NCBI RefSeq assembly: GCF_000765235.1
Contig: NZ_JPJG01000054.1
Coordinates: forward strand, 1-52,133
Length of the DNA stretch: 52,133 bases
Direction: 5' to 3'
Source: Oscillibacter sp. ER4
GTDB taxonomy: Bacteria > Bacillota > Clostridia > Oscillospirales > Oscillospiraceae
The notes below the pieces were generated by a model. That model searched no databases. It worked only from the letters and a program-made list of their open reading frames with translations, and was not told the DNA's origin. This document shows, piece after piece, positions 120-9,769 of the stretch (positions are counted from its first letter, which is position 1; each line of letters starts with the position of its first letter). A program made the position numbers and the translations under genes.

Positions 120-446
120 TCATTTTAGCAGTTCGTCGATCGCGCGGTAAAGCTCGGAGAGCGTCTCCTCGTCATTTTGCTGGATGGCGGCGGTGACGCA
201 GGTCTCCATGTGGTTGCGCAAAATCTGGCGGCTGGTTGAGCGGATGGCGGACTCCACCGCGGCGAGCTGGATCAGCACCTCGGAGCAGTCACGGTCGTCC
301 TCCACCATCTTTTTGATGGATTCGAGGTGCCCGATGGCGCGCGCAAGGCGGTTGCTGATCTTTTTCGTCTGCTCGGGGTCATGGACATGCCCGTGCACAT
401 GGGGGTGCCCGTGGCTGTGCTCATGGACGTGTTCGTGCTCGATCAT
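120..446 (-). CDS. CsoR/RcnR/FrmR-family metal-sensing repressor with His-rich N-terminus
   Basis: A 108-aa all-helical DUF156 repressor. Residues 3-22 are an alternating His-rich tail (nine histidines), and residues 28-108 form the CsoR-like fold. A Cys in DRDCSEV and the His/Cys pair in RNHMETC match the Cys-His-Cys copper(I) ligand positions of CsoR, so a metal sensor is likely. The His tail could also bind Ni, Zn or Co. The start ATG has an AGGAG site 5 nt upstream. It begins 11 nt after the lyase-like gene stops, so it is the last gene of a three-gene operon. No metal transporter is next to it, which is unusual for the family. Its target is unknown; autoregulation of this operon is an inference. 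Confidence 0.85.
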   Translation of the reverse strand: MIEHEHVHEHSHGHPHVHGHVHDPEQTKKISNRLARAIGHLESIKKMVEDDRDCSEVLIQLAAVESAIRSTSRQILRNHMETCVTAAIQQNDEETLSELYRAIDELLK

Positions 447-457
447 GGCATTCTCCT

Positions 458-1726
458 TTAGAACTTCAGCGCGCCGACGCTCGCTTCCACGGTTCGGATA
501 TACGCGCGGTCGATGATCTGCTGGGCGACGGCCTCGAGATATGGCGTGAGGGGCATGTCGTTGTCCATCTCGGGCACCTTGCTGCGGAGCAGGTCGTAGA
601 TAGCCTGCGTGCCCTTGGCGCAGCGCTTATCCTCATAGCAGTCGAGCGCCTGACCGTCGCAGATGAGCTCGGCGGCGAGGATATACTTGGCGAGGTGCAT
701 CGAGTCATAGGCCTTCTTGGCGGCGTTGTAGCCCATGTTGACATAGTCCTCCTGGTTGGCGCAGGTGGTCAGGTTGTCGACCACGGCGGGGTGCGCAAGG
801 ATGAGCAGCTCGCCCTGAAGACCCGCGGAGGCGTACTGGATCATCATAAGGCCATTGTTGAAGTCGGCGTTCTTGTTGAGGAACGCCGGCAGCTCGCTCA
901 CCAAGCTGTTGAGCAGGCGGTCGATGCGGCTGTTGCTCATTTTGCACAGATCCGTGATCGCGATGCAGAGATTGTCGGACGCCATACCAGCATAGGTGCC
1001 GTCGGCATTGCAGCCCATCAGCGCGACCGCACCGCCGTCCTCTTCATCGAAGATGAGCGGGTTGTCGACGGACGAGTTGAGCTCGATAGCGAGCGTCGCC
1101 TGCGCGTCATAGATCGCAAGCGACGCGAACGCGGTGACGGACGTGGTGCCGGAGAGCAGGATAAGGCCTTCTTTGGAAGAAAGCACGACGGGCTTGAGGC
1201 CCGCGCGCTTGAGCGCCTCTGCGCCGTCAAGCGTTTCACCCTGATAGGTGGCCCTGCCCTCGCCGATCATCACCATGCCGATGTGGCCCTCGAGCGTCAG
1301 ATAGCCGACGGAGCCATGACCGGGGACGATGGGGCTGATGCCCGCGTTGAGCATGTCGCGGATCAGCGCGAGCGTTTCAAGACGGATGCCCGTATGGCCG
1401 GAGCCGAAGTGGCAGAGCATGACAAACATCATCGCGCGCGTGCACTCCTCGGCGATGGGCTCGCCGACGGCGCAAGTGTGGGCGTAGATGTTGTTGCGCT
1501 GGATCGTTTCGCGGTCCTCTTCGGGGATGAACTTCTTCCAGTTGTCGCCAAGGCCCGTGGTCAGGCCATAGATGGCCTTGCCTTCGTGGCTGAAGCGGTC
1601 GACATGGGCGCGGCAGTGGTTGACGCGCTCTTCATATTCTTTGGAAAACGCGACCTTCGCGCCAAAGCGCGCGACACTGACGAGGTCGTTGATGGTGGCG
1701 GTGCCGCCAAGTGTAACAGTGTTCAT
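458..1726 (-). CDS. Aromatic amino acid lyase (HAL/PAL) family homologue lacking the MIO motif
   Basis: A 422-aa protein clearly related to histidine ammonia-lyase: YGLTTGLG near the N-terminus, GSVG plus GHIGMVMIGEG in the core, ELNSSVDNPLIF, a LMMIQYASAGLQGE stretch and the highly conserved ANQEDYVNMG. Real lyases are about 500 aa and carry GSVGASGDLAPL, where Ala-Ser-Gly cyclises to the MIO cofactor. Here GSVG is followed by YLTLEG, so MIO cannot form. The NGTQ motif has become SGTT, and the QDxYSxRCxPQ segment that normally precedes the NSxTDNP block is missing, which accounts for much of the shorter length. It is therefore not a standard ammonia-lyase: either a pseudoenzyme or an enzyme with different chemistry. 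AAGAGGT precedes the ATG. It is cotranscribed with the genes on both sides. Confidence 0.85.
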   Translation of the reverse strand: MNTVTLGGTATINDLVSVARFGAKVAFSKEYEERVNHCRAHVDRFSHEGKAIYGLTTGLGDNWKKFIPEEDRETIQRNNIYAHTCAVGEPIAEECTRAMMFVMLCHFGSGHTGIRLETLALIRDMLNAGISPIVPGHGSVGYLTLEGHIGMVMIGEGRATYQGETLDGAEALKRAGLKPVVLSSKEGLILLSGTTSVTAFASLAIYDAQATLAIELNSSVDNPLIFDEEDGGAVALMGCNADGTYAGMASDNLCIAITDLCKMSNSRIDRLLNSLVSELPAFLNKNADFNNGLMMIQYASAGLQGELLILAHPAVVDNLTTCANQEDYVNMGYNAAKKAYDSMHLAKYILAAELICDGQALDCYEDKRCAKGTQAIYDLLRSKVPEMDNDMPLTPYLEAVAQQIIDRAYIRTVEASVGALKF

Positions 1727-1763: not shown

Positions 1764-2309
1764 TTACAGGGAGTTGTCAGTCTTGTAGCCGTCTGCCTCG
1801 ATGGCGATGTAGCGCACCTTTTTGCCCATCTCCATCTCGCCGTAGAACGCGACGTAGTACGGGCGGTAGAAGGGACGGTAGGATGCGACCTCCATCGAGG
1901 TGATGATGTGGCCCGAGTGGCGGCGCATGATGCGCATGGCGACGCGCTTGGCCTGGGCGATGATCTTCTCTTTGTCGAAGGTGGAATCCTGGCACATGTC
2001 GGGATCGAGGTCGGCTTCGTAAAGCGGGAGCGGCTGCTCGTGATAGCTCGCCGTGCAGCGCGTGCCCTCGACGATCATGCAGATCTTCTGCGAGTTGCCG
2101 CCCATCTGGCCCTTGCGGGTGAAAAAGCGCTCCACAAGGCCGGGCTTGAAATAGGCGTCGAACACGACTTCAAAGCTCTGCAAATAGAGCTGCTTCATCG
2201 TGATCTTGCCGCCGCCGTACATGGCCTTGCCAATCAGGTTGCCGCCGCCGCTGGCCTTGACAAAGGCCTCGGAGGCGGTCATTTTCTTTTGGGTGATTAA
2301 AACGTCCAC
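1764..2309 (-). CDS. Protein of unknown function, first gene of the lyase-like operon
   Basis: A 181-aa soluble protein that I do not recognise. It starts with GTG (GGAAG 10 nt upstream); an ATG nine codons later is an alternative. There is no signal peptide or membrane segment. It is rich in aromatic and basic residues near the C-terminus (SYRPFYRPYYVAFYGEM), with a Gly-rich stretch near residue 20 and two Cys in the middle. It lies 37 nt upstream of the MIO-less lyase homologue and shares the promoter at 2400-2428, so the two products probably act together. A substrate-binding or partner subunit is a guess only. Confidence 0.75.
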   Translation of the reverse strand: MDVLITQKKMTASEAFVKASGGGNLIGKAMYGGGKITMKQLYLQSFEVVFDAYFKPGLVERFFTRKGQMGGNSQKICMIVEGTRCTASYHEQPLPLYEADLDPDMCQDSTFDKEKIIAQAKRVAMRIMRRHSGHIITSMEVASYRPFYRPYYVAFYGEMEMGKKVRYIAIEADGYKTDNSL

Positions 2310-2399: not shown

Positions 2400-2428
2400 A
2401 TCATACGCCAACGCTGGGGGAATGACAA
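2400..2428 (-). promoter_or_regulatory. Sigma-A promoter of the lyase-like operon
   Basis: On the minus strand TTGTCA (2428-2423), 17 bp, TATGAT (2405-2400). This predicts a transcript start near 2393 and a leader of about 84 nt before the GTG at 2309. The rest of 2429-2616 holds no gene I can support. Confidence 0.55.
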
Positions 2429-2732: not shown

Positions 2733-3404
2733 TCAGTAGCTGCCAAACTCACTTACACGCTCTTCTTTCTCCAGAATGTGGCAGCCGAGCGGCACGGTAA
2801 GCGACGCGTCGTTGTCAACGTACTCGCTGCGCACAATAGGTTTTTCGAGGTTGCGGCTTGCTGTCCACATCTGCGTCCTCACAGGCCGCTGCTCTACGCT
2901 CTCCTTGGTGACGTAGCGGGCAAGCTGCTCGTAGTCATACGTCCCGATATACTCGAAGTCTACAACGTCGCCATACGGCCACAAACTACGTACCGTCTCC
3001 ATATCGTCACCGGCAGCGTTTATCACGATATGGTGATGCAGCCGCCCTCCGCCGTGCTTGTCTTCGGTGGTGTATATGTACTTGAGTGTCTGCCCTCGCG
3101 CCTTCCTGTGCTCCCGCAAGTGCTTAAGAAAGTTGCGTACGTTCTTGATCGCACCGGCGCGCTTGGCTGGTAGATTCTCGTCACGGTAAGTCAGCGTCAC
3201 AAAGAGATCGCGCGGGCCGAAGTTCGCGGCCAGTAGCATTTCCAGCTTCACGCGCGCCGCCTTGTCGTTCATGGCCTTCTGTGCTGCGGTCGTCATGCGT
3301 GACTTGACTGCACGCACGCGCAGGCCGTCCTGCGGCTCCGGCGCGGTGTATATGATCGTTTTGACGAGCCGCCCTGCGATGATCGTCTTTTTTCGTTTCG
3401 CCAT
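2733..3404 (-). CDS. HUH-type rolling-circle replication initiator
   Basis: A 223-aa protein with the three classical Rep motifs in order: motif 1 LFVTLTY (about residue 67), motif 2 GRLHHHIVIN with the HUH metal ligands (about residue 124), and motif 3 LARYVTKE with the catalytic Tyr and downstream Lys (about residue 164). This layout is that of small phage and plasmid Rep proteins that nick an origin and replicate by rolling circle. AAAGGG lies just before the ATG. It ends the minus-strand operon that begins at 4884. Together with the integrase at 5595 it suggests an element that integrates but can also replicate after excision. No superfamily 3 helicase domain is present. Confidence 0.85.
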   Translation of the reverse strand: MAKRKKTIIAGRLVKTIIYTAPEPQDGLRVRAVKSRMTTAAQKAMNDKAARVKLEMLLAANFGPRDLFVTLTYRDENLPAKRAGAIKNVRNFLKHLREHRKARGQTLKYIYTTEDKHGGGRLHHHIVINAAGDDMETVRSLWPYGDVVDFEYIGTYDYEQLARYVTKESVEQRPVRTQMWTASRNLEKPIVRSEYVDNDASLTVPLGCHILEKEERVSEFGSY

Positions 3405-3431
3405 ATATGCCCTTTCAATGGAGATGGGAAC

Positions 3432-3459
3432 GCCTCCGGCTGTTCGCCGGAGGCTTTTT
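3432..3459 (+). terminator. Perfect 9-bp hairpin with T-run between rep and the upstream gene
   Basis: GCCTCCGGC, loop TGTTC, GCCGGAGGC, then TTTTT on the plus strand. The T-run points opposite to the flanking minus-strand genes, so it may stop antisense transcription. It might also act as a replication or mRNA-processing structure for rep. Confidence 0.5.
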
Positions 3460-3475
3460 CTATGCTGTTAAATCA

Positions 3476-3994
3476 TCAATTTTCAATGCTGAACTCAGGC
3501 ATTGCCTCGGAAGGAATACAAAAATCCTGCATCATGTCCGGCCCTCCTGCTGCGTCTTTGCGGGATGCTATTAAGTACGCTTGTGCAAGCACGGAGGGCG
3601 AAAACGACCACCCAAGAGCATCTGAGACCATCCGTGCATTTTCACCGTCGACTGTCTGCGGGCTATCCATGCCGCCAATGAAGAATCCCCACGGTTCGCC
3701 TGCTGGCAGATTGCGGCGGAACGCCGCGACTTTACGCGGGTCAAACGGCTTGTGACTGCCATAGGTCAAAACAGTATCCTCATAGGCGAAAACCGTGCGG
3801 TTGCGCTGCCATACGAAGCACAAGAGCTTTTCCATGCATGAGCTGACGAGGTTTGCGCCCTTTTCCGGTAGCTCGCTGGTCTCTGGCTCGCTCTTGGCTT
3901 TCTCGTGTTTCTTAAGCTGCGAGAGCAAGGCCTGCCGCTCCTTGTCGGTCATCTTCTCAATATATGCCATGATCTGTTCCGCGCGGCTGCTCAT
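3476..3994 (-). CDS. Element protein of unknown function
   Basis: A 172-aa protein that I do not recognise. The start chosen (MSSRAEQ) overlaps the upstream stop as ATGA, with GAAAGAGAG upstream; a longer reading frame exists but would overlap the previous gene. The first 60 residues are helical and charged (KMTDKERQALLSQLKKHEK), followed by a mixed domain with several Trp and Phe residues. No catalytic motif is visible. It sits between a small helical protein and Rep, so a replication or mobilisation accessory role is possible but unproven. Confidence 0.7.
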   Translation of the reverse strand: MSSRAEQIMAYIEKMTDKERQALLSQLKKHEKAKSEPETSELPEKGANLVSSCMEKLLCFVWQRNRTVFAYEDTVLTYGSHKPFDPRKVAAFRRNLPAGEPWGFFIGGMDSPQTVDGENARMVSDALGWSFSPSVLAQAYLIASRKDAAGGPDMMQDFCIPSEAMPEFSIEN

Positions 3995-4269
3995 GCTGCG
4001 TTGCTCTCTTTCTCGGCGGCACATAGTGCCTGATATGCTATGTCGCCAAAGTCTGTGATCTCGTTCAGCAGCTTGCTGGCTGCGCGCATCAAGTTTTCAA
4101 GTCTGTGTACGTCGCCTTCGTAAAAGTCGGCATAGCAGCCCATCATCTCGCGCTTGATCGGGCTCAGCACCATTTCCGCGCGCATACAGTCCAGCAGCGT
4201 TTGCAGCGTCTCAGCGTTGGCGATGATCTCATCGACGGCGGACGACGCGCTGGTCTTCTTTTCAATCAT
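3991..4269 (-). CDS. Small helical element protein of unknown function
   Basis: A 92-aa protein starting MIEKKTS (GGGAGG 9 nt upstream), overlapping the genes on both sides by ATGA junctions, which indicates translational coupling. The composition is helical and acidic, and there is no known motif. A longer frame extends upstream but lacks a ribosome binding site. Confidence 0.65.
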   Translation of the reverse strand: MIEKKTSASSAVDEIIANAETLQTLLDCMRAEMVLSPIKREMMGCYADFYEGDVHRLENLMRAASKLLNEITDFGDIAYQALCAAEKESNAA

Positions 4270-4451
4270 GCCCCTACGCCTCCCTTCGCCTGCTGCGCGA
4301 CCCACTCGCGCAGCCCTTCGGCCGAAATCACCGTGCGGTTACCGCACTTGAAGGCAGGAAACGACGGGGTACGGGACAGTTCATACACGCGCGAGGGGCA
4401 AAGACCCAGCAGCTCCGCCGCCTCCGGTACAGACAAAGCGAGCTTTTCCAT
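4266..4451 (-). CDS. Excisionase-like / AlpA-type helix-turn-helix protein
   Basis: A 61-aa winged-helix protein (SVPEAAELLGLCPSRVYEL, then FKCGNRTVIS and LREWV), the pattern of the excisionase/MerR-like DNA-binding family. It probably bends DNA for excision with the integrase at 5595-6785, or regulates the operon. GGAGG lies 9 nt before the ATG, and the start overlaps the preceding stop by one base. Confidence 0.8.
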   Translation of the reverse strand: MEKLALSVPEAAELLGLCPSRVYELSRTPSFPAFKCGNRTVISAEGLREWVAQQAKGGVGA

Positions 4452-4591
4452 TATCCTCGTGCCTCCTTTTCGCGCTGGCAGAACAGCAGAAAATCAAGAT
4501 ACTCACGAAATTTCTTTTTGTTCTCTGGCGTTAACTTGTCGTACATTCGCAGAATGTACTCGGTCGTTGTGTCTTTATTGGTATTCGTCAT
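4451..4591 (-). CDS. Small element protein (46 aa) of unknown function
   Basis: MTNTNKDTTTEYILRMYDKL followed by an acidic and basic helical tail. A good GGAGA site precedes the ATG. The 18 bp around its start codon (4582-4599) recur inverted at 5520-5537. The type of gene (a short helical ORF before an excisionase gene) is common in clostridial integrative elements, but its role is not known to me. Confidence 0.65.
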   Translation of the reverse strand: MTNTNKDTTTEYILRMYDKLTPENKKKFREYLDFLLFCQREKEARG

Positions 4592-4689
4592 TGGGAACTC
4601 TCCTTTTGTTTTGATTTCGGCGGCGGTTATGCGCTGCGCGCGGGCGTGCCGCCTACGCCCCTGTGTGCCCGAATCGGGCACGGCCCGTG

Positions 4690-4884
4690 TTACTGCTGCA
4701 CGAGATCGGCGACGGCGACGCCGAGGCCCGCCGCGAGCTTCTTCGCGGTATCGTTTGCACAACTCTTGCCGCTTTTGATCGCTGAAATGGTTACTCTGGA
4801 TACGCCTGTGCGAATGGCTAACTCCTTTACACTTACATCTGCACGTGCAAGCTCTGTAGCAAACTTCACTTTATCGATTCTCAT
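4690..4884 (-). CDS. Cro/Xre-type helix-turn-helix regulator
   Basis: A 64-aa HTH protein (VSVKELAIRTGVSRVTISAI, then KKLAAGLGVAVADLVQ). GGAGG lies 7 nt before the ATG. It is divergent from the larger Xre repressor at 5030, with two matching palindromes between them, the arrangement of a Cro/CI-like switch. It is the first gene of the minus operon leading to xis-like and rep genes, so it probably sets expression of replication and excision. Confidence 0.8.
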   Translation of the reverse strand: MRIDKVKFATELARADVSVKELAIRTGVSRVTISAIKSGKSCANDTAKKLAAGLGVAVADLVQQ

Positions 4885-4902
4885 ATCTTCCCTCCTTTTA
4901 AT

Positions 4903-4998
4903 TAGCGCTCGCTATATTTATAAAATAGCTTAAGCTAATTCAAATGTCAATACTGTTTTCAGCTTTTGCTTGTTTTTTTCTTTTGCGTGTGCTATTGT
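4903..4998. promoter_or_regulatory. Divergent promoters with two TAGC-N4-GCTA operators
   Basis: TAGCGCTCGCTA (4903-4914) and TAGCTTAAGCTA (4926-4937) share the palindrome TAGC-N4-GCTA with centres 23 bp apart. The second lies between the -35 (TTGACA, 4950-4945) and near the -10 (TATTTT, 4927-4922) of the minus promoter for the Cro-like gene. The plus promoter for the Xre repressor is TTGTTT (4970-4975), 17 bp, TATTGT (4993-4998), with an extended TGC. Binding by either HTH protein would block the minus promoter. Confidence 0.6.
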
Positions 4999-5029
4999 AA
5001 AGACAATTCTAAGGATGAGGAGGGGTATT

Positions 5030-5473
5030 TTGACAGTAGGTGATAGGATCAAGGAACTTCGACGAGACAACGGCTTGACCCAAAAAGAACTTGCTAACGC
5101 TATGGGAGTTACCGCCTCAATGATAGGACAGTATGAAACTGGAATTAGAACTCCCAAATATGAAACTCTTGAGCGAATTGCTAAAGCATTATCTGTCTCT
5201 GTTCCTATGCTGATGGGTGAAGATACTACGGTAGATATATGTCTAATTGCTATCAATCTGTCGGAAAAGTACGGATTGTCTACCGGGGATGCTGAGAATA
5301 TTGTCAACGACTGTATTCATTCCCTAAAGCCTCTTTTCAGAGGCGAAGACGGCGCAAGGTTTAATGCTCTGCTCAGCTATCTTAATGCTGAGGGCCGGAA
5401 AGTTGCCTACGAGCGAGTTCGAGAACTTACAGAAATCCCACGTTATCAAAAGCAACCCGTGCAAGAAGAATAA
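5030..5473 (+). CDS. Xre-family repressor of the integrated element
   Basis: A 147-aa protein. Residues 3-60 form an HTH domain (GDRIKELRRDNGLTQKELA, then VTASMIGQYETGIRTPKYET), and the C-terminal half is helical with no peptidase motif. A TTG start with GAGGAGG 6 nt upstream is preferred; an ATG five codons earlier has no ribosome binding site. It is divergent from the Cro-like gene, so it is probably the maintenance repressor of the element. Confidence 0.85.
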   Translation: MTVGDRIKELRRDNGLTQKELANAMGVTASMIGQYETGIRTPKYETLERIAKALSVSVPMLMGEDTTVDICLIAINLSEKYGLSTGDAENIVNDCIHSLKPLFRGEDGARFNALLSYLNAEGRKVAYERVRELTEIPRYQKQPVQEE

Positions 5474-5479
5474 AAAATA

Positions 5480-5510
5480 CCCGCCGAGGTACTGCGAATA
5501 CCTCGGCGGG
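5480..5510. terminator. Perfect 12-bp hairpin after the repressor gene
   Basis: CCCGCCGAGGTA, loop CTGCGAA, TACCTCGGCGGG. A T-run follows on the minus strand only (TATTTTTTATT), so as a terminator it faces left. It may insulate the repressor from antisense reading or fold the 3' end of its mRNA. Confidence 0.5.
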
Positions 5511-5540
5511 CGAATGCAAAGTTCCCAATGACGAATAAGG
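5503..5540 (+). repeat. Copy 1 of a 38-bp imperfect direct repeat flanking the integrase module
   Basis: TCGGCGGGC, then an ATGCAA-G-TCCCAATGACGAA core. A second copy is at 8049-8086 in the same orientation (about six differences). The inner 18 bp (5520-5537) also occur inverted at 4582-4599, over the start codon of the 46-aa gene. The role is unknown. Confidence 0.6.
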
Positions 5541-5594
5541 CGCTCTGCGTGTTTATTATAGCACGCAGGGCCGAAAAAGAAAAGAGGTTTTTTC

Positions 5595-6785
5595 ATGGCA
5601 AAGCGTGCAAACGGCACCGGCACGGTGCGAAAGGTCACCCGCATGATCGGCGGGAAGAAATACGAATATTGGGAGGCCCGCTATACGGACGGAGTGGACC
5701 TCGGTACCGGCAAACAGCGGCGGCGCTCTATCTACGGCAAAACTCAGAAGGAGGTTATGCAGAAGCTCAAGGCCGCGACTGCCGCCATTGACAACGGCAC
5801 CTATATCCAGCCGAACAAGCAGACGCTCGGTCAATGGCTCGATATCTGGGAAAAGACCTATCTCGGCGGCGTCAAGCCCCGCACGCGGGAGATTTACGCG
5901 GATAACATCCGGCTGCACATCAAGCCCGCGCCCGGCGCTGTGCGCCTTGAGGCGCTGAACACGCACGAGATACAGCAGTTCTATAATGCCCTCGGCGAGC
6001 CGAGCAAGACGCGCAGCATAGGCCTTTCCCCAAAGACAATCAAGGACATTCACGGCGTGCTGCACAAGGCGCTGCAGCAGGCCGTCGAGATCGGCTATCT
6101 ACGATTTAACCCCGCTGACGCCTGCAAGCTGCCGCGTGTGGAGCGCAAGGAGCTTGCACCGTTGGACGATGCGCAGATTACCGCCTTTTTGCAGGAGATC
6201 CACGGCGCGCGCTTTGAAACGTTGCTGACGGTGACGCTTTTCACCGGCATGCGCAAGGGTGAAGTGCTCGGCCTGACGTGGGACAGCGTGGACTTCAAGT
6301 CCGGTACCATCACGATCAACAAGCAGGCGCTCCTTCACGAGCGCGACACGGGCGGCGGCTTCCGGCTCGGTAGTACGAAGAACGGCAAAAGCCGCACCAT
6401 CGCGCCCGCCTCGGCGGTCATGGCGCTCCTGAAGCAGCACAAGACCGCGCAGGCCCAACAGCGTCTAAAGGTGGGGAGAATGTGGGAGAATACCGCCCTC
6501 GTCTTTACCGACGAGATCGGACGCCCGCTGACAAAAGCCACCGTATACCGCGCTTTCAAGCAGGCTGCGGCAGCAATCGGGCGGCCTGAAGCCCGCTTTC
6601 ACGATCTCCGGCACTCCTACGCCGTCGCTGCCATCCGCTCCGGCGACGATATCAAGACGGTGCAGGGCAATCTGGGCCATGCCACAGCAGCCTTTACGCT
6701 TGATGTATACGGCCATGTCACCGAGCAGATGAAGCAGGCGAGCGCTGCACATATGGACGCTTATATCAAGACTGTTTCTAAATAA
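5595..6785 (+). CDS. int: Tyrosine recombinase / site-specific integrase
   Basis: A 396-aa phage-type integrase. An AP2-like arm-binding domain is at residues 1-60, a SAM-like core-binding domain at about 75-170, and the catalytic domain at about 185-390. It has the first Arg in FTGMRKGEVLGL, the HDLRH box, the GNLGH His and the nucleophile Tyr in LDVYGHV. AGAGG is present upstream of the ATG. It catalyses integration and excision of the surrounding element. Its attachment sites could not be identified; the tRNA-Cys 3' end at 8295 is 1.5 kb away, but no second copy of that sequence is visible near 2600. Confidence 0.95.
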   Translation: MAKRANGTGTVRKVTRMIGGKKYEYWEARYTDGVDLGTGKQRRRSIYGKTQKEVMQKLKAATAAIDNGTYIQPNKQTLGQWLDIWEKTYLGGVKPRTREIYADNIRLHIKPAPGAVRLEALNTHEIQQFYNALGEPSKTRSIGLSPKTIKDIHGVLHKALQQAVEIGYLRFNPADACKLPRVERKELAPLDDAQITAFLQEIHGARFETLLTVTLFTGMRKGEVLGLTWDSVDFKSGTITINKQALLHERDTGGGFRLGSTKNGKSRTIAPASAVMALLKQHKTAQAQQRLKVGRMWENTALVFTDEIGRPLTKATVYRAFKQAAAAIGRPEARFHDLRHSYAVAAIRSGDDIKTVQGNLGHATAAFTLDVYGHVTEQMKQASAAHMDAYIKTVSK

Positions 6786-6861
6786 AGCAGCGCCCAGACG
6801 GTGTCCGATTCGGACATCCTCTGGGCGTTGCTATGCGAAGCCGAAAAGCGGCTTGCTTTTT
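6786..6861 (+). terminator. Hairpins ending the integrase transcript
   Basis: Two structures follow the integrase stop. A long hairpin at 6786-6832 has outer arms AGCAGCGCCCAGA and TCTGGGCGTTGCT and an inner GTCCG/CGGAC. A terminator at 6838-6861 is AAGCCG, CGGCTT, then a T-run. Confidence 0.65.
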
Positions 6862-6881
6862 GTCGGCTCTCATGTTATCCT
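6853..6881 (+). promoter_or_regulatory. Promoter for the small toxin gene
   Basis: TTGCTT (6853-6858), 17 bp, TATCCT (6876-6881) with an extended TG. The -35 overlaps the tail of the integrase terminator. It gives a leader of about 53 nt before the toxin ATG. Confidence 0.4.
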
Positions 6882-6940
6882 GTCGGTGGCGCTGCACGAA
6901 CGGCAGGCGGTTAGCACTTCCCTGAAGGGAGGTGATGTCT

Positions 6941-7027
6941 ATGGTTACTTACGGTGAGCTTTTTGCTTACACGATGGTATTGATAGGCGTTGCAACTCTG
7001 GTTTTCCAGATTTGCAAAAGAAAATGA
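6941..7027 (+). CDS. Type I toxin, TxpA/"putative holin-like toxin" family, 28 aa
   Basis: The ORF reads MVTYGELFAYTMVLI then GVATLVFQICKRK, 28 residues: one hydrophobic membrane segment (about 7-23) with a short basic tail, the shape of TxpA/BsrG-like membrane toxins. A very strong ribosome binding site (GGGAGGTGATG) sits 4 nt before the ATG. A bidirectional hairpin (7025-7051) ends the gene, and a consensus promoter pointing back at the gene lies at 7138-7111, as in txpA/ratA. Such toxins depolarise or perforate the membrane unless the antisense RNA pairs with the mRNA. Confidence 0.8.
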   Translation: MVTYGELFAYTMVLIGVATLVFQICKRK

Positions 7028-7104
7028 CCGCCCCCGGCCAAGGTAAGCGGTCAAAATCTTTGACTAATTCCTGAGGCTAACCGCTTGTCGCAGCGCCTCT
7101 TTCT
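7015..7104 (-). ncRNA. Predicted antisense antitoxin RNA (RatA-like)
   Basis: The promoter on the minus strand is a perfect consensus: TTGACA (7138-7133), 16 bp, TATAAT (7116-7111). The transcript would start near 7104 and run into the toxin 3' end. The hairpin TGACCGC/GCGGTCA (7025-7051) is followed on the minus strand by TTTTCTTTT, a likely terminator near 7015. Overlap with the toxin mRNA 3' end would allow type I antitoxin pairing. The RNA ends are predicted, not measured. Confidence 0.65.
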
Positions 7105-7110
7105 ACGCTC

Positions 7111-7138
7111 ATTATAGCAGGTCATACCGCCTTGTCAA
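7111..7138 (-). promoter_or_regulatory. Consensus promoter of the antisense RNA
   Basis: TTGACA, 16-bp spacer, TATAAT on the minus strand, with no coding gene downstream on that strand before the toxin region. Confidence 0.75.
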
Positions 7139-7171
7139 GTCTCGGTTTACACCGAGGCTTTTTCTCTGCGC

Positions 7172-7375
7172 TCAGCGGCCGTTGTCGCGCTCCAGCGTCT
7201 CCGTAATTGCACGGTTGATAAAGGCGTTGACGCTTTCACCCCGCGCCTGTGCGTGGGCTTTCAGCTCCTCCTTGCGGCCCTTTGGAAACGTAACGTTGAC
7301 GCGATCATAGTTTGCCTTGACATATTTATTTACAGCGCGCTGCTGCGCCTTGCTGACCTTGCTCTCCTCGCTCAT
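7172..7375 (-). CDS. Arc/ribbon-helix-helix-type small DNA-binding protein
   Basis: A 67-aa protein with an N-terminal basic region (KVSKAQQRAVNKYVKAN) and an RHH-like core (YDRVNVTFPKGRKEELKAHA, then ESVNAFINRAITETLE). The start used has AAAGGAGG 10 nt upstream; the frame is open further up. It resembles antitoxins and small repressors of integrative elements, but no toxin gene is beside it. Three direct repeats upstream (7455-7534) are likely binding sites. Confidence 0.8.
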   Translation of the reverse strand: MSEESKVSKAQQRAVNKYVKANYDRVNVTFPKGRKEELKAHAQARGESVNAFINRAITETLERDNGR

Positions 7376-7454
7376 GCGGCGGTTTCCTCCTTTGCGGGGG
7401 GCCGCAAAATATCGCGGCACCTCTCCTATTATGGCTAAATTATAGCGCATTATC

Positions 7455-7534
7455 TATTGGTGTCAATATATAATATGTACAAATATATTGATGCAAATAT
7501 GTTTGCTCTGTCAATTGATATTGGTGTAAATATA
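7455..7534. repeat. Three direct repeats upstream of the RHH gene
   Basis: Copies of TATTGRTGYMAATATR begin at 7455, 7486 and 7519, 31 and 33 bp apart, about three helical turns. The third overlaps a plus-strand promoter (TTGATA 7515-7520, 17 bp, TATATT 7538-7543, or TATAAT at 7543-7548) that reads toward the 89-aa gene. The arrangement suggests operators for the RHH protein. The rest of the interval to 7712 is an apparently untranslated leader. Confidence 0.55.
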
Positions 7535-7712
7535 TGCTATATTATAATCACAGCAAGGGAGAAGAGATCAAGCGAAAGCGGACGGGAGTACCGAGAGGGA
7601 AAGCAAGAACGCGACGCAAGAGCCGGGACGGATTTGGAAGTAGCAGCGCAAAGCGCAGACGCCACAAAGCCACCGGCCGCTCGATCTCCACCAGAAAAAG
7701 GAGGAAACAAAC

Positions 7713-7982
7713 ATGAGCACCAACGAAATGGAATGCAAGGCCCGCGAGCTGCGGCAGCTTCAAGCCCTCATCGACGAGGCGACCGCCGAAGCCGAGGCCA
7801 TCAAGGACGCGCTCAAGGCCGCGATGGGCGACGCTGAGAGCGTTCAGGCTGGCGAATACAAAATCACGTGGAAGGCCGTCACGAGCGCGAGAATTGACAC
7901 AGGTGCGCTGCGTAAGGCGCTGCCGGACGTCGCCGCAGCTTTCACCAAGGAAAGCACCGTGCGCCGCTTCTGTGTGGCGTAG
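7713..7982 (+). CDS. Phage/element recombination-associated small protein
   Basis: An 89-aa protein. The first 40 residues form a helix (ELRQLQALIDEATAEAEAIK), then GEYKITWKAVTSARIDTGAL and DVAAAFTKESTVRRFCVA. This is a family often found next to YqaJ-type exonuclease genes in gut Clostridia phages and elements, though no exonuclease is here. AAAGGAGG lies 8 nt before the ATG. A long leader (about 160 nt) precedes it. It ends with TAG. Confidence 0.75.
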   Translation: MSTNEMECKARELRQLQALIDEATAEAEAIKDALKAAMGDAESVQAGEYKITWKAVTSARIDTGALRKALPDVAAAFTKESTVRRFCVA

Positions 7983-8048
7983 AACGCGCCGAGAGCGCAC
8001 AGCGGGTAAATCCCCTCATCCCTCTCCTGCCGACGCGCTGCGAACGTT

Positions 8049-8086
8049 TCGGCGGGCTATGCAAGGCTCCCAATGACGAACACGGG
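8049..8086 (+). repeat. Copy 2 of the 38-bp direct repeat
   Basis: Matches 5503-5540 in the same orientation. Between the copies lie int, the type I toxin locus, the RHH gene and the 89-aa gene (2.5 kb). Confidence 0.6.
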
Positions 8087-8126
8087 CAAAGGACTGCAAC
8101 ACGAATTGTTAAAATCTTGGCAATCT

Positions 8127-8172
8127 CCGCCGAGGTGTGGGCGCATATACGCGCCCCGCTCGGCGGCTTTTT
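8127..8172 (+). terminator. Terminator after the 89-aa gene
   Basis: Outer arms CCGCCGAG and CTCGGCGG, inner GGGCGC/GCGCCC, followed by CTTTTTC. The interval 7983-8294 holds no supported gene. Bases 8205-8260 carry three GGGGAA blocks in a frame reading GEKIGEKGICRGIGK, which could be a relic of an integrase C-terminus. A second hairpin with a T-run (CTTGCAA/TTGCAAG) is at 8262-8288. Confidence 0.65.
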
Positions 8173-8294
8173 CGGCCCTCCGGCGTGCTGATTTTCCCCA
8201 CCGTCGAGCGCGTAGGGGAAAAAATAGGGGAAAAAGGCATTTGCAGGGGAATAGGAAAAGCCTTGCAACCCTTGAGATTGCAAGACTTTTGCTC

Positions 8295-8369
8295 TGGAGG
8301 TGACACCCAGATTTGAACTGGGGAATGAGGGTTTTGCAGACCCTTGCCTTACCACTTGGCTATGTCACC
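8295..8369 (-). tRNA. tRNA-Cys (GCA)
   Basis: Acceptor GGTGACA/TGTCACC, anticodon stem AGGGT/ACCCT with loop CTGCAAA (anticodon GCA), T-loop TTCAAAT, encoded CCA. It is separated from the other tRNAs by a bidirectional terminator at 8376-8404. Its 3' end faces the integrated element. Confidence 0.93.
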
Positions 8370-8375
8370 GTATGG

Positions 8376-8404
8376 AAAAAGGAGCAAAATCATTGCTCCT
8401 TTTT
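8376..8404. terminator. Bidirectional terminator between tRNA-Gly and tRNA-Cys
   Basis: A-run, GGAGCAA (8381-8387), loop AATCA, TTGCTCC (8393-8399), T-run. It would end the tRNA-Val/Asp/Phe/Gly transcript before tRNA-Cys. Confidence 0.75.
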
Positions 8405-8410
8405 CATTTG

Positions 8411-8486
8411 TGGAGCGGGCGACGAGGCTCGAACTCGCTACCTCCACCTTGGCAAGGTGGCGCTCTACCAGATGAGCTACGCCCGC
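8411..8486 (-). tRNA. tRNA-Gly (GCC)
   Basis: Acceptor GCGGGCG/CGCCCGC, anticodon stem CCACC/GGTGG with loop TTGCCAA (GCC), T-loop TTCGAGC, encoded CCA. Confidence 0.95.
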
Positions 8487-8489
8487 GAA

Positions 8490-8566
<77 letters not shown>

Positions 8567-8594
8567 TATCAAGCCGCTATTGCAGCCTGATGAA

Positions 8595-8671
8595 TGGCGA
8601 CCAGGAAGGGGTTCGAACCCTCGACCTCCGGCGTGACAGGCCGGCGTTCTAACCAGCTGAACTACCTGGCC
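8595..8671 (-). tRNA. tRNA-Asp (GTC)
   Basis: Acceptor GGCCAGG/CCTGGTC, anticodon loop CTGTCAC (GTC), T-loop TTCGAAC, encoded CCA. Confidence 0.95.
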
Positions 8672-8678
8672 GAATTTA

Positions 8679-8754
8679 TGGTGGGAACAACAGGGCTCGA
8701 ACCTGTGACCCTCTGCTTGTAAGGCAGATGCTCTCCCAGCTGAGCTATGCTCCC
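8679..8754 (-). tRNA. tRNA-Val (TAC)
   Basis: Acceptor GGGAGCA/TGTTCCC (one GT pair), anticodon loop TTACAAG (TAC), T-loop TTCGAGC, encoded CCA. First gene of the tRNA operon. Confidence 0.95.
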
Positions 8755-8790
8755 CACTCGAAATAATCGCTTCGGCGAACGACAAGGATT

Positions 8791-8819
8791 ATTATACAGA
8801 ATAACCCCTGCCGTGTCAA
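8791..8819 (-). promoter_or_regulatory. Consensus promoter of the tRNA operon
   Basis: TTGACA (8819-8814), 17 bp, TATAAT (8796-8791) on the minus strand, 37 nt before tRNA-Val. A perfect sigma-A match, as expected for stable RNA. Confidence 0.85.
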
Positions 8820-8866
8820 CCTTATTTTTTGATTTTTTCAAAAAATTTTTTGAAAAGGGAAATGCA

Positions 8867-9769
8867 TTACTTTCCCTGCTTTTTCAGATCGGCGATCATG
8901 GCGGTCAGATCCTCTTTTGTAAAGTTCTGCACCCTGTCACAGAACTGGCAGGTGAGTTCAGCAGAGCCCTGCTCGTCCACGATCTTTTCAAGCTCCTTTG
9001 ACCCCAGCGACAGCAGCGCGCGCTCCGTGCGCTCGCGCGAGCAGTAGCAGCGGTATTCGATCGGATCGACGGAGAGGATCTCCATGTCAAAATCAGACAG
9101 CACCGTTTTGAGCAGCACCGCAGGATCAGGATTCTCCTTTAAGAGATTCGTCACGCTGGGAGCTGCGTAGATGCCGCCCTCGACCTTGGTGATGACGTCC
9201 TCGCCCGCGCCGGGGAGGAGCTGGATGAGATAGCCGCCCGCGGTGAGCACGCTGCGGTCGCGGTCGATGAGCACGCCCAGGCCGCAGGCCGACGGCACCT
9301 GCTCGGATTCGACATAGTAGGCGGCCACGTCCTCGGCAATCTCGCCGCCAAGCAGGTCGACCGTGCCGACGTAGGGCTCGCGCATGTTGAGGTCCTTGAT
9401 GACCGTCAGCGTGCCGCTGCGGCCGACGGCGGTGCCGACGTCCAGCTTGCCGTCCTCGCGCAGGGCGAGATCGACGGCGGGGTTCTGCACGTAGCCGCGC
9501 ACATTGCCCTCAGAGTCCGAAACGGTCAGGATGGTGCCGAGCGGGCCGTCGCCCTTGATCTGCATCGTGACGCTTGCGCCGTTATCCTTGAGTGCGTTGC
9601 CCATCATCGAACAGGCCGCGAGCGCGCGGCCAAGCGCCGCCGTGGCGACGGGAGAGGTGTGGTGGATCTGGCGGGCGCGTTCGGTCAGACCGCGCGTGTA
9701 GACCGCGACAGCGTTGACAAAGCCATCTTTCGAGATGGCGCGGACCAGACAGTCCTTCTGTGCTTCCAT
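8867..9769 (-). CDS. hslO: Hsp33 redox-regulated chaperone
   Basis: A 300-aa cytoplasmic holdase that is activated when its zinc-binding cysteines are oxidised. The N-terminal chaperone domain contains GRALAACSMMG and GDGPLGTILTVSD. The C-terminal switch has the CxC (YRCYCSRE) and CxxC (LTCQFCDR) zinc ligands. The start MEAQKD was chosen because GAGGA lies 7 nt upstream; the frame is open further up but overlaps the methyltransferase. It follows that gene by 10 nt and is probably cotranscribed. Confidence 0.95.
   Translation of the reverse strand: MEAQKDCLVRAISKDGFVNAVAVYTRGLTERARQIHHTSPVATAALGRALAACSMMGNALKDNGASVTMQIKGDGPLGTILTVSDSEGNVRGYVQNPAVDLALREDGKLDVGTAVGRSGTLTVIKDLNMREPYVGTVDLLGGEIAEDVAAYYVESEQVPSACGLGVLIDRDRSVLTAGGYLIQLLPGAGEDVITKVEGGIYAAPSVTNLLKENPDPAVLLKTVLSDFDMEILSVDPIEYRCYCSRERTERALLSLGSKELEKIVDEQGSAELTCQFCDRVQNFTKEDLTAMIADLKKQGK

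Follow-up and report, generated by a model that had tools for sequence, protein, structure and literature searches.

The segment considered here, referred to below as the window, is a stretch of 52,133 nucleotides that corresponds to the complete contig C92 in an assembly of 130 contigs. Near the end of this contig lies a gene of the HAL/PAL enzyme family in which the site of the MIO cofactor is missing. MIO is regarded as a hallmark of this family, and to our knowledge ergothionase is the only member known to work without it. The question raised by the locus is whether the gene encodes a maintained protein with a new role (a regulator, a binding protein or an enzyme with different chemistry), as the original prediction proposed, or a protein in decay.

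The open reading frame starts with ATG and, as had been claimed, is free of internal stops, and its product is a member of PF00221 (Lyase_aromatic), scoring 375.6 bits against a curated cut-off of 27.3. The solved chains that score highest against it are histidine ammonia-lyases, and it is 38-40% identical to three HutH rows; with the NCBIfam hutH equivalog model, it reaches 346.2 bits against a cut-off of 539.15. Its predicted structure, with a mean pLDDT of 40.8, was too poor for use, and a scan of IMG/VR confirmed no relatives. The coordinates of the gene, its altered sites and its neighbors are listed in Table 1.

Table 1. Features of the MIO-less lyase locus in the window.
Feature	Position	Strand	Description	Basis
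MIO-less aromatic amino acid lyase homologue	458..1726	(-)	422 aa, 86-aa internal in-frame gap relative to the clade	ORF, translation, PF00221, alignment
GSVGYLTLEGH, site of the lost MIO triad	1283..1315 (about)	(-)	loop shorter by three residues, with Tyr aligned to Ala142 and Glu to Leu149	alignments
SGTT replacing NGT(Q)	1142..1153	(-)	Ser in the Asn195 column	alignment
Junction of the 86-aa (258-bp) in-frame gap	1100..1108 (about)	(-)	QDxLSxRCxPQ segment removed	comparison with the 71% identical sibling
181-aa partner gene (P0002)	1764..2309	(-)	unmatched in Pfam, NCBIfam and PHROGs; homologues accompanied by an SSF symporter and a protein of about 80 aa	
CsoR/FrmR-type metal-sensitive repressor	120..446	(-)	strongly His-rich N-terminus	PF02583, 91.8 bits
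Sigma-70-like promoter match	2400..2428	(-)	10 of 12 positions, upstream of the 181-aa gene	consensus match only

At the cofactor site, the HutH motif GSxGASGDLxPLxH is aligned with GSVG-YLTLEGH in the window protein, leaving three alignment columns empty and placing Tyr in the Ala column, which agrees with the earlier observation that the Ala-Ser-Gly after GSVG is replaced by a YLTLEG stretch. The alternative offered with that observation, a motif that is merely shifted, was ruled out by alignment with HutH and ergothionase-type rows: the triad is lost. The other two observations on the framework also hold, namely that ANQED is retained and that NGTQ has become SGTT. The columns of the Ala/Ser-Ser-Gly triad are empty or occupied by Tyr in the window protein and in 20 other rows, none of which thus has the site of an MIO-dependent HutH. 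Private decay of the window gene as the cause of the loss was likewise ruled out, since all 21 full rows have it. The pattern shared by these rows is GSVGY[LI]xxExH, to which the window protein conforms, and they are referred to here as the GSVGY clade.

Genes with the GSVGY motif were found 22 times in 14 genomes across all samples searched: the window, Blautia (2), G009 (2), G339, G140, G212, G283, G420, G970 (4), G862 (2), G1158, G1127, G860 (3) and G1144, with up to four paralogues per genome. The samples comprised 60 genomes of the genus, family and order, 391 of the class, 22 of the family of G420, 333 of the Blautia family and 398 of the phylum; in the class sample, the motif was read in part of the matching loci, so that the GSVGY counts are lower bounds. 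The 27 places in the family of G420 divide into 3 GSVGY and 24 MIO-type, and the 14 places in the Blautia family into 13 and 1, respectively. The phylum sample contained 121 genomes with a match, and the 30 loci read there all carry ASG or SSG and none carries GSVGY. The members found come from the class to which the window belongs and from the Blautia family.

In a tree of 37 rows, from which the G420 gene was omitted as it is split by an assembly gap, the 21 GSVGY rows form a clade with support of 100/100, six ergothionase-type rows form another (100/100), and ten HutH rows a third (98/91); the window protein falls outside the ergothionase clade. The tree is unrooted among these three groups, and six rows added for rooting left it so, two being ergothionase-like and four grouping with HutH. 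The closest row to the window protein is G970:C4 (71% identity), followed by Blautia A (64%), and the nearest named relative is that of Blautia parvula (L031), with GSVGYLGLESH at the MIO site. The expectation that close homologues would also lack ASG and form a clade of their own was thus confirmed. In this strongly supported clade, distinct from HutH and ergothionase, the loss of MIO is fixed, and the clade, as judged by sequence, is neither of the two. A literature search on MIO-less family members, ergothionase and hercynine, trimethylamine and urocanate did not find a second MIO-free clade described.

The composition of the remaining active-site columns, whose residue names follow the numbering of Pseudomonas putida HAL, indicates what the clade has kept and gained. 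Only two invariant residues are shared by 21/21 GSVGY rows and found in none of the HutH or ergothionase-type rows: a Tyr at position 142 and a Glu aligned with Leu149, which are Tyr142 and Glu146 in the Blautia protein. These residues are candidates for catalytic or binding groups. Tyr53, His83, Gln277, Arg283 and Glu414 are retained in all 20 rows other than the window, in which the Tyr280 column holds Leu (15), Tyr (4) or Cys (1) and the Phe329 column Ala, Pro, Cys or Phe; the Asn195 column varies within the clade among Ser, Asn and Thr. The claim of a complete loss of the best-known catalytic parts accordingly holds for the window copy and not for the other 20 rows.

The window copy differs from its relatives in a further respect. 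As originally noted, the QDxYS-RCxPQ block is absent from it, and alignment places this block (QDxYSxRCxPQ) inside the 86-aa gap, which lies between ...SLAIYDA and QATLAIELN..., where G970:C4 has 86 residues. The earlier statement that the length elsewhere looks conserved thus holds only in part, as this one gap leaves the protein 86 residues short. Among the 21 full rows, the gap occurs in that of the window alone. It removes eight clade-invariant residues including Gln277 and Arg283, so that the Gln277/Arg283 loop is missing in the window copy only. The two losses therefore have separate histories, that of MIO being clade-wide and that of the 86 residues confined to the window. Outside the gap, the window copy keeps 54/54 columns that are invariant in the 20 other rows. 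It has 34 unique changes against 36 in the G970 sibling, from which it differs at the three codon positions by 0.23/0.17/0.67, with a normal pattern in both halves of the gene. Faster evolution of the window copy was suspected from comparison with Blautia alone (chi-square 0.27 to 8.73 depending on the outgroup), and the difference disappeared with the closer sibling.

The genome of the window is 98% complete, and neither BCCT nor MttB was detected in it at E 0.001; a close SSF partner was not found there, the best match to the Blautia SSF being 25% identical, and a tblastn search of the window for remnants of SSF, BCCT and the small proteins returned chance-level matches only. An ergothionase-like gene was likewise not seen in this genome. 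In another genome of the window's own genus, an ergothionase-like gene with GSIGEGDIS is present (L178, G011:C181).

The gap is unique to the window copy, and searches of its genome did not recover the usual partners; this copy was therefore most likely broken recently or mis-assembled, and is not to be read as evidence for a non-catalytic role. Without the Gln277/Arg283 loop, the protein is most likely inactive, and the simplest account of the locus is a remnant of a betaine pathway in which the lyase has recently been broken. It is quite improbable that the 422-aa protein is instead a maintained short form acting as a regulator or binding protein. The intact reading frame, the complete conservation outside the gap, the rate equal to that of the sibling, the normal codon-position pattern, the promoter-like site and the tight spacing with the 181-aa and CsoR-like genes would all suit such a protein, of which the conservation and unraised rate are indeed also to be expected; however, the same conservation would be seen after a deletion that is recent compared with the divergence, the eight invariant residues lost are removed in 0/20 other rows, and BCCT, MttB and a close SSF are not found in the genome. 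An error in the metagenome assembly, with the real gene being a normal full-length GSVGY lyase, is unlikely, although the rest of the gene is fully conserved at the clade-invariant columns and lies close to the end of one contig of 130. The gap is exactly in frame, third-position G+C is alike on its two sides (0.82 and 0.87), and elsewhere in the genome the missing segment has a single significant homologue, a HutH-like gene on C2, 44% identical. The window copy is a poor representative of the GSVGY clade.

The lyase gene begins 37 bp after the 181-aa gene on the same strand, and the CsoR/FrmR-type gene follows 11 bp downstream of the lyase stop, also on the same strand, before the contig ends at base 1; this gene is possibly in the same operon as the lyase. 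Sigma-70-like matches number 3 in 3 kb, compared with 1.2 expected. The original prediction also asked whether homologues of the lyase stand next to the same 181-aa gene, which is the case in 4/16 other loci (L064, L171, L198 and L204); in those four, as well as in L071, where a lyase is not recognized, the 181-aa gene is accompanied by an SSF gene and a protein of about 80 aa. The predicted structure of the 181-aa protein (mean pLDDT 49.7) was too poor for use. Directly upstream of the 181-aa gene, positions 2733-6785 hold a Rep-type gene (PF23343), an HTH regulator and a tyrosine integrase, and beyond them lies a tRNA cluster that opens with tRNA-Cys at 8295. This stretch may be a small integrative element; a search for its ends gave no exact 14-base repeats between 2200-2760 and 6500-9500.

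The gene neighborhoods of GSVGY lyases outside the window provide information on their likely function. Across 16 such loci, with L031 and L171 treated as one and neighbors named by Pfam for part of the proteins and otherwise by similarity to those, the lyase has a BCCT or SSF transporter gene in its vicinity at 12; MttB and an XDH-type molybdoenzyme occur at three loci each, and ergothionase at two. The four loci without a nearby transporter are L199, L200 (lyase at contig end), L201 (3.9-kb contig) and L206. Within 1.5 kb, 5/7 GSVGY loci have a transporter; of the remaining two, the window has the 181-aa gene and L056 has nothing. In the same distance, BCCT, SSF, MttB, XDH or the 181-aa gene is found in 0/32 ordinary HutH loci. 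These 32 loci are what remains of 37 after setting aside five missed by the motif pattern, which also have ASG and whose neighbors are uncounted.

L157 contains on a single strand three XDH genes, ergothionase, BCCT, DcuC and a GSVGY lyase, and L067 contains BCCT, a GSVGY lyase, three XDH genes and ergothionase. In L205 (4021-18123), one same-strand run consists of three XDH genes, two GSVGY lyases, BCCT, urocanase, a TPP enzyme and a third GSVGY lyase, with ergothionase absent among the neighboring genes of this locus; the run is a candidate pathway for an imidazole betaine. At some other loci, AcnX, MttB or LDH2 take the place of histidine-pathway genes, as in the Blautia parvula cluster (L171:3-8278 and L031:276-6524), which has two MttB homologues, two aconitase-X pairs, an Ldh_2 dehydrogenase, an SSF transporter and two GSVGY lyases. 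An ergothionase orthologue occurs in 6/391 class genomes (E below 1e-60, 218-aa query) and in 4/5 of the class genomes in which a GSVGY gene was seen, the window's own excluded; three of these four genomes belong to one family, so that the co-occurrence is partly shared ancestry. Sigma-54 activator genes stand near the lyase in three loci (L066:13150-14814, L204:6983-8593 and L206:10923-12572), which suggests regulated, perhaps substrate-induced, expression. Proteins of about 80 aa, of two kinds, without a Pfam match and hydrophobic by eye, are encoded at L064:2734-2973, L071:9068-9307, L066:9456-9713 and L067:4314-4553; one kind accompanies SSF and the other BCCT transporters, and they are perhaps small transporter subunits.

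Since the active-site residues are kept in the 20 other rows, most of which have transporter or catabolic genes close by, these GSVGY members have the appearance of enzymes that act without MIO, and not of regulators or binding proteins. The earlier proposal of a maintained protein with a new role is thereby supported in part; the regulatory or binding role is not, and the window copy points to recent damage. In short, the observation that prompted the analysis was right and its interpretation half right.

A mechanism can be proposed on this basis. An aromatic betaine would be imported by the neighboring BCCT or SSF transporter, and the lyase would catalyze a 1,2-elimination of trimethylamine from this amino-acid betaine, which would probably be an imidazole compound (hercynine or something closely related), yielding an acrylate, a urocanate-type acid, that would pass to urocanase or the XDH-type molybdoenzyme. 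Catalysis would rest on the retained residues and on the invariant Tyr and Glu gained where MIO once was. MIO turns ammonia, a poor leaving group, into a good one, and trimethylammonium leaves readily without such help; MIO would therefore be dispensable in GSVGY lyases, with ergothionase as a precedent. We infer the reaction, the substrate and the role of the new Tyr and Glu, the substrate from the gene neighbors, and hercynine is a first guess. The presence of up to four paralogues in one genome and the AcnX, MttB and LDH2 company in Blautia suggest more than one substrate across the clade. The frequencies given above weigh against the betaine-lyase reading, with XDH at only 3/16 loci, ergothionase at 2/16 and no transporter near the lyase at 4/16. 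On balance, it is somewhat probable that full-length GSVGY members are MIO-independent lyases that eliminate trimethylamine from an imported aromatic, probably imidazole, betaine such as hercynine, and that the copy in the window, recently broken or else mis-assembled, is inactive.

Two other readings of the clade were weighed against that of a separate trimethylamine lyase. It is very doubtful that GSVGY proteins are simply ergothionases: the absence of MIO from both groups, the Leu in the Tyr280 column of 15/20 GSVGY and 6/6 ergothionase-type rows and the XDH and BCCT genes that accompany both would be accounted for, but the two form separate clades, the MIO-site loop is shortened by three residues in one and by one in the other, and two Lys invariant in the ergothionase-type rows are missing in 21/21 GSVGY rows. 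Moreover, both kinds co-occur in four class genomes and in Blautia, and stand in the same gene run in G140 and G283. A different MIO-free chemistry on the fold (hydration, isomerization or amine exchange), operating in betaine pathways with MttB and aconitase X, would explain the MttB, AcnX and LDH2 genes of Blautia and the multiplicity of paralogues; it is nevertheless unlikely, as the XDH, ergothionase and urocanase neighbors in L067, L157 and L205 fit elimination to a urocanate-type acid.

Should the trimethylamine-lyase reading be correct, the cleavage of dietary aromatic betaines by GSVGY lyases would be a further source of trimethylamine, and a second MIO-free clade, represented by several paralogues in some Blautia-family genomes and placed in runs with genes for betaine transport and ergothioneine breakdown, would widen the known routes for trimethylamine production by gut bacteria. 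The broader proposal, that a second MIO-free HAL/PAL lineage, apart from ergothionase and with its own Tyr and Glu replacing MIO, serves gut bacteria to split trimethylamine from aromatic betaines of the diet, for instance hercynine, is put forward tentatively, as its chances are a little short of even. The clade is a natural experiment on how a fold replaces its cofactor. In addition, GSVGY genes are likely to be labelled histidine ammonia-lyase by similarity, and pathway predictions made from that name would be wrong.

HutH, which depends on MIO, shares with the window protein and other GSVGY members the fold, the framework motifs, Tyr53, His83 and Glu414, and differs from them in having ASG or SSG, in having Tyr280 in 10/10 rows and in the absence of BCCT, SSF, MttB and XDH genes within 1.5 kb at its 32 counted loci. 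A gut-bacterial pathway of ergothioneine catabolism that combines ergothionase with a xanthine-oxidase homologue has reportedly been described by Feng et al. in JACS. Ergothionase (ergothioneine trimethylamine-lyase; PDB 6s7j) resembles the GSVGY clade in belonging to the PF00221 fold family without MIO, in sharing with many GSVGY rows the Leu in the Tyr280 column and a Ser in the Asn195 column, and in its XDH-type and BCCT company. The ergothionase-type rows differ at the MIO site, where their GE-[AG]D is shorter than the HAL loop by one residue and the GSVGY site by three, and in the two invariant Lys, in NKD[KR] and TIQK, whose catalytic role is putative; since both are absent from all GSVGY rows including the window, substrate and activation may differ from those of ergothionase. 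The relevant passages of PMC13405746 describe ergothionase, citing the enzyme of Treponema denticola, as a trimethylamine lyase structurally similar to HAL/PAL/TAL and without MIO, and those of PMC12771579 describe a gut xanthine-oxidase homologue that reductively cleaves the aromatic C-S bond in ergothioneine catabolism; a GSVGY lyase is not named in the ergothioneine-pathway passages of either source. The genes for this pair of enzymes adjoin each other in L067, L157, L158, L159, L160, L161 and L172, and in L067 and L157 the GSVGY lyase comes in addition to the genes of the ergothioneine pathway; in L205, ergothionase is absent from the genes next to it.
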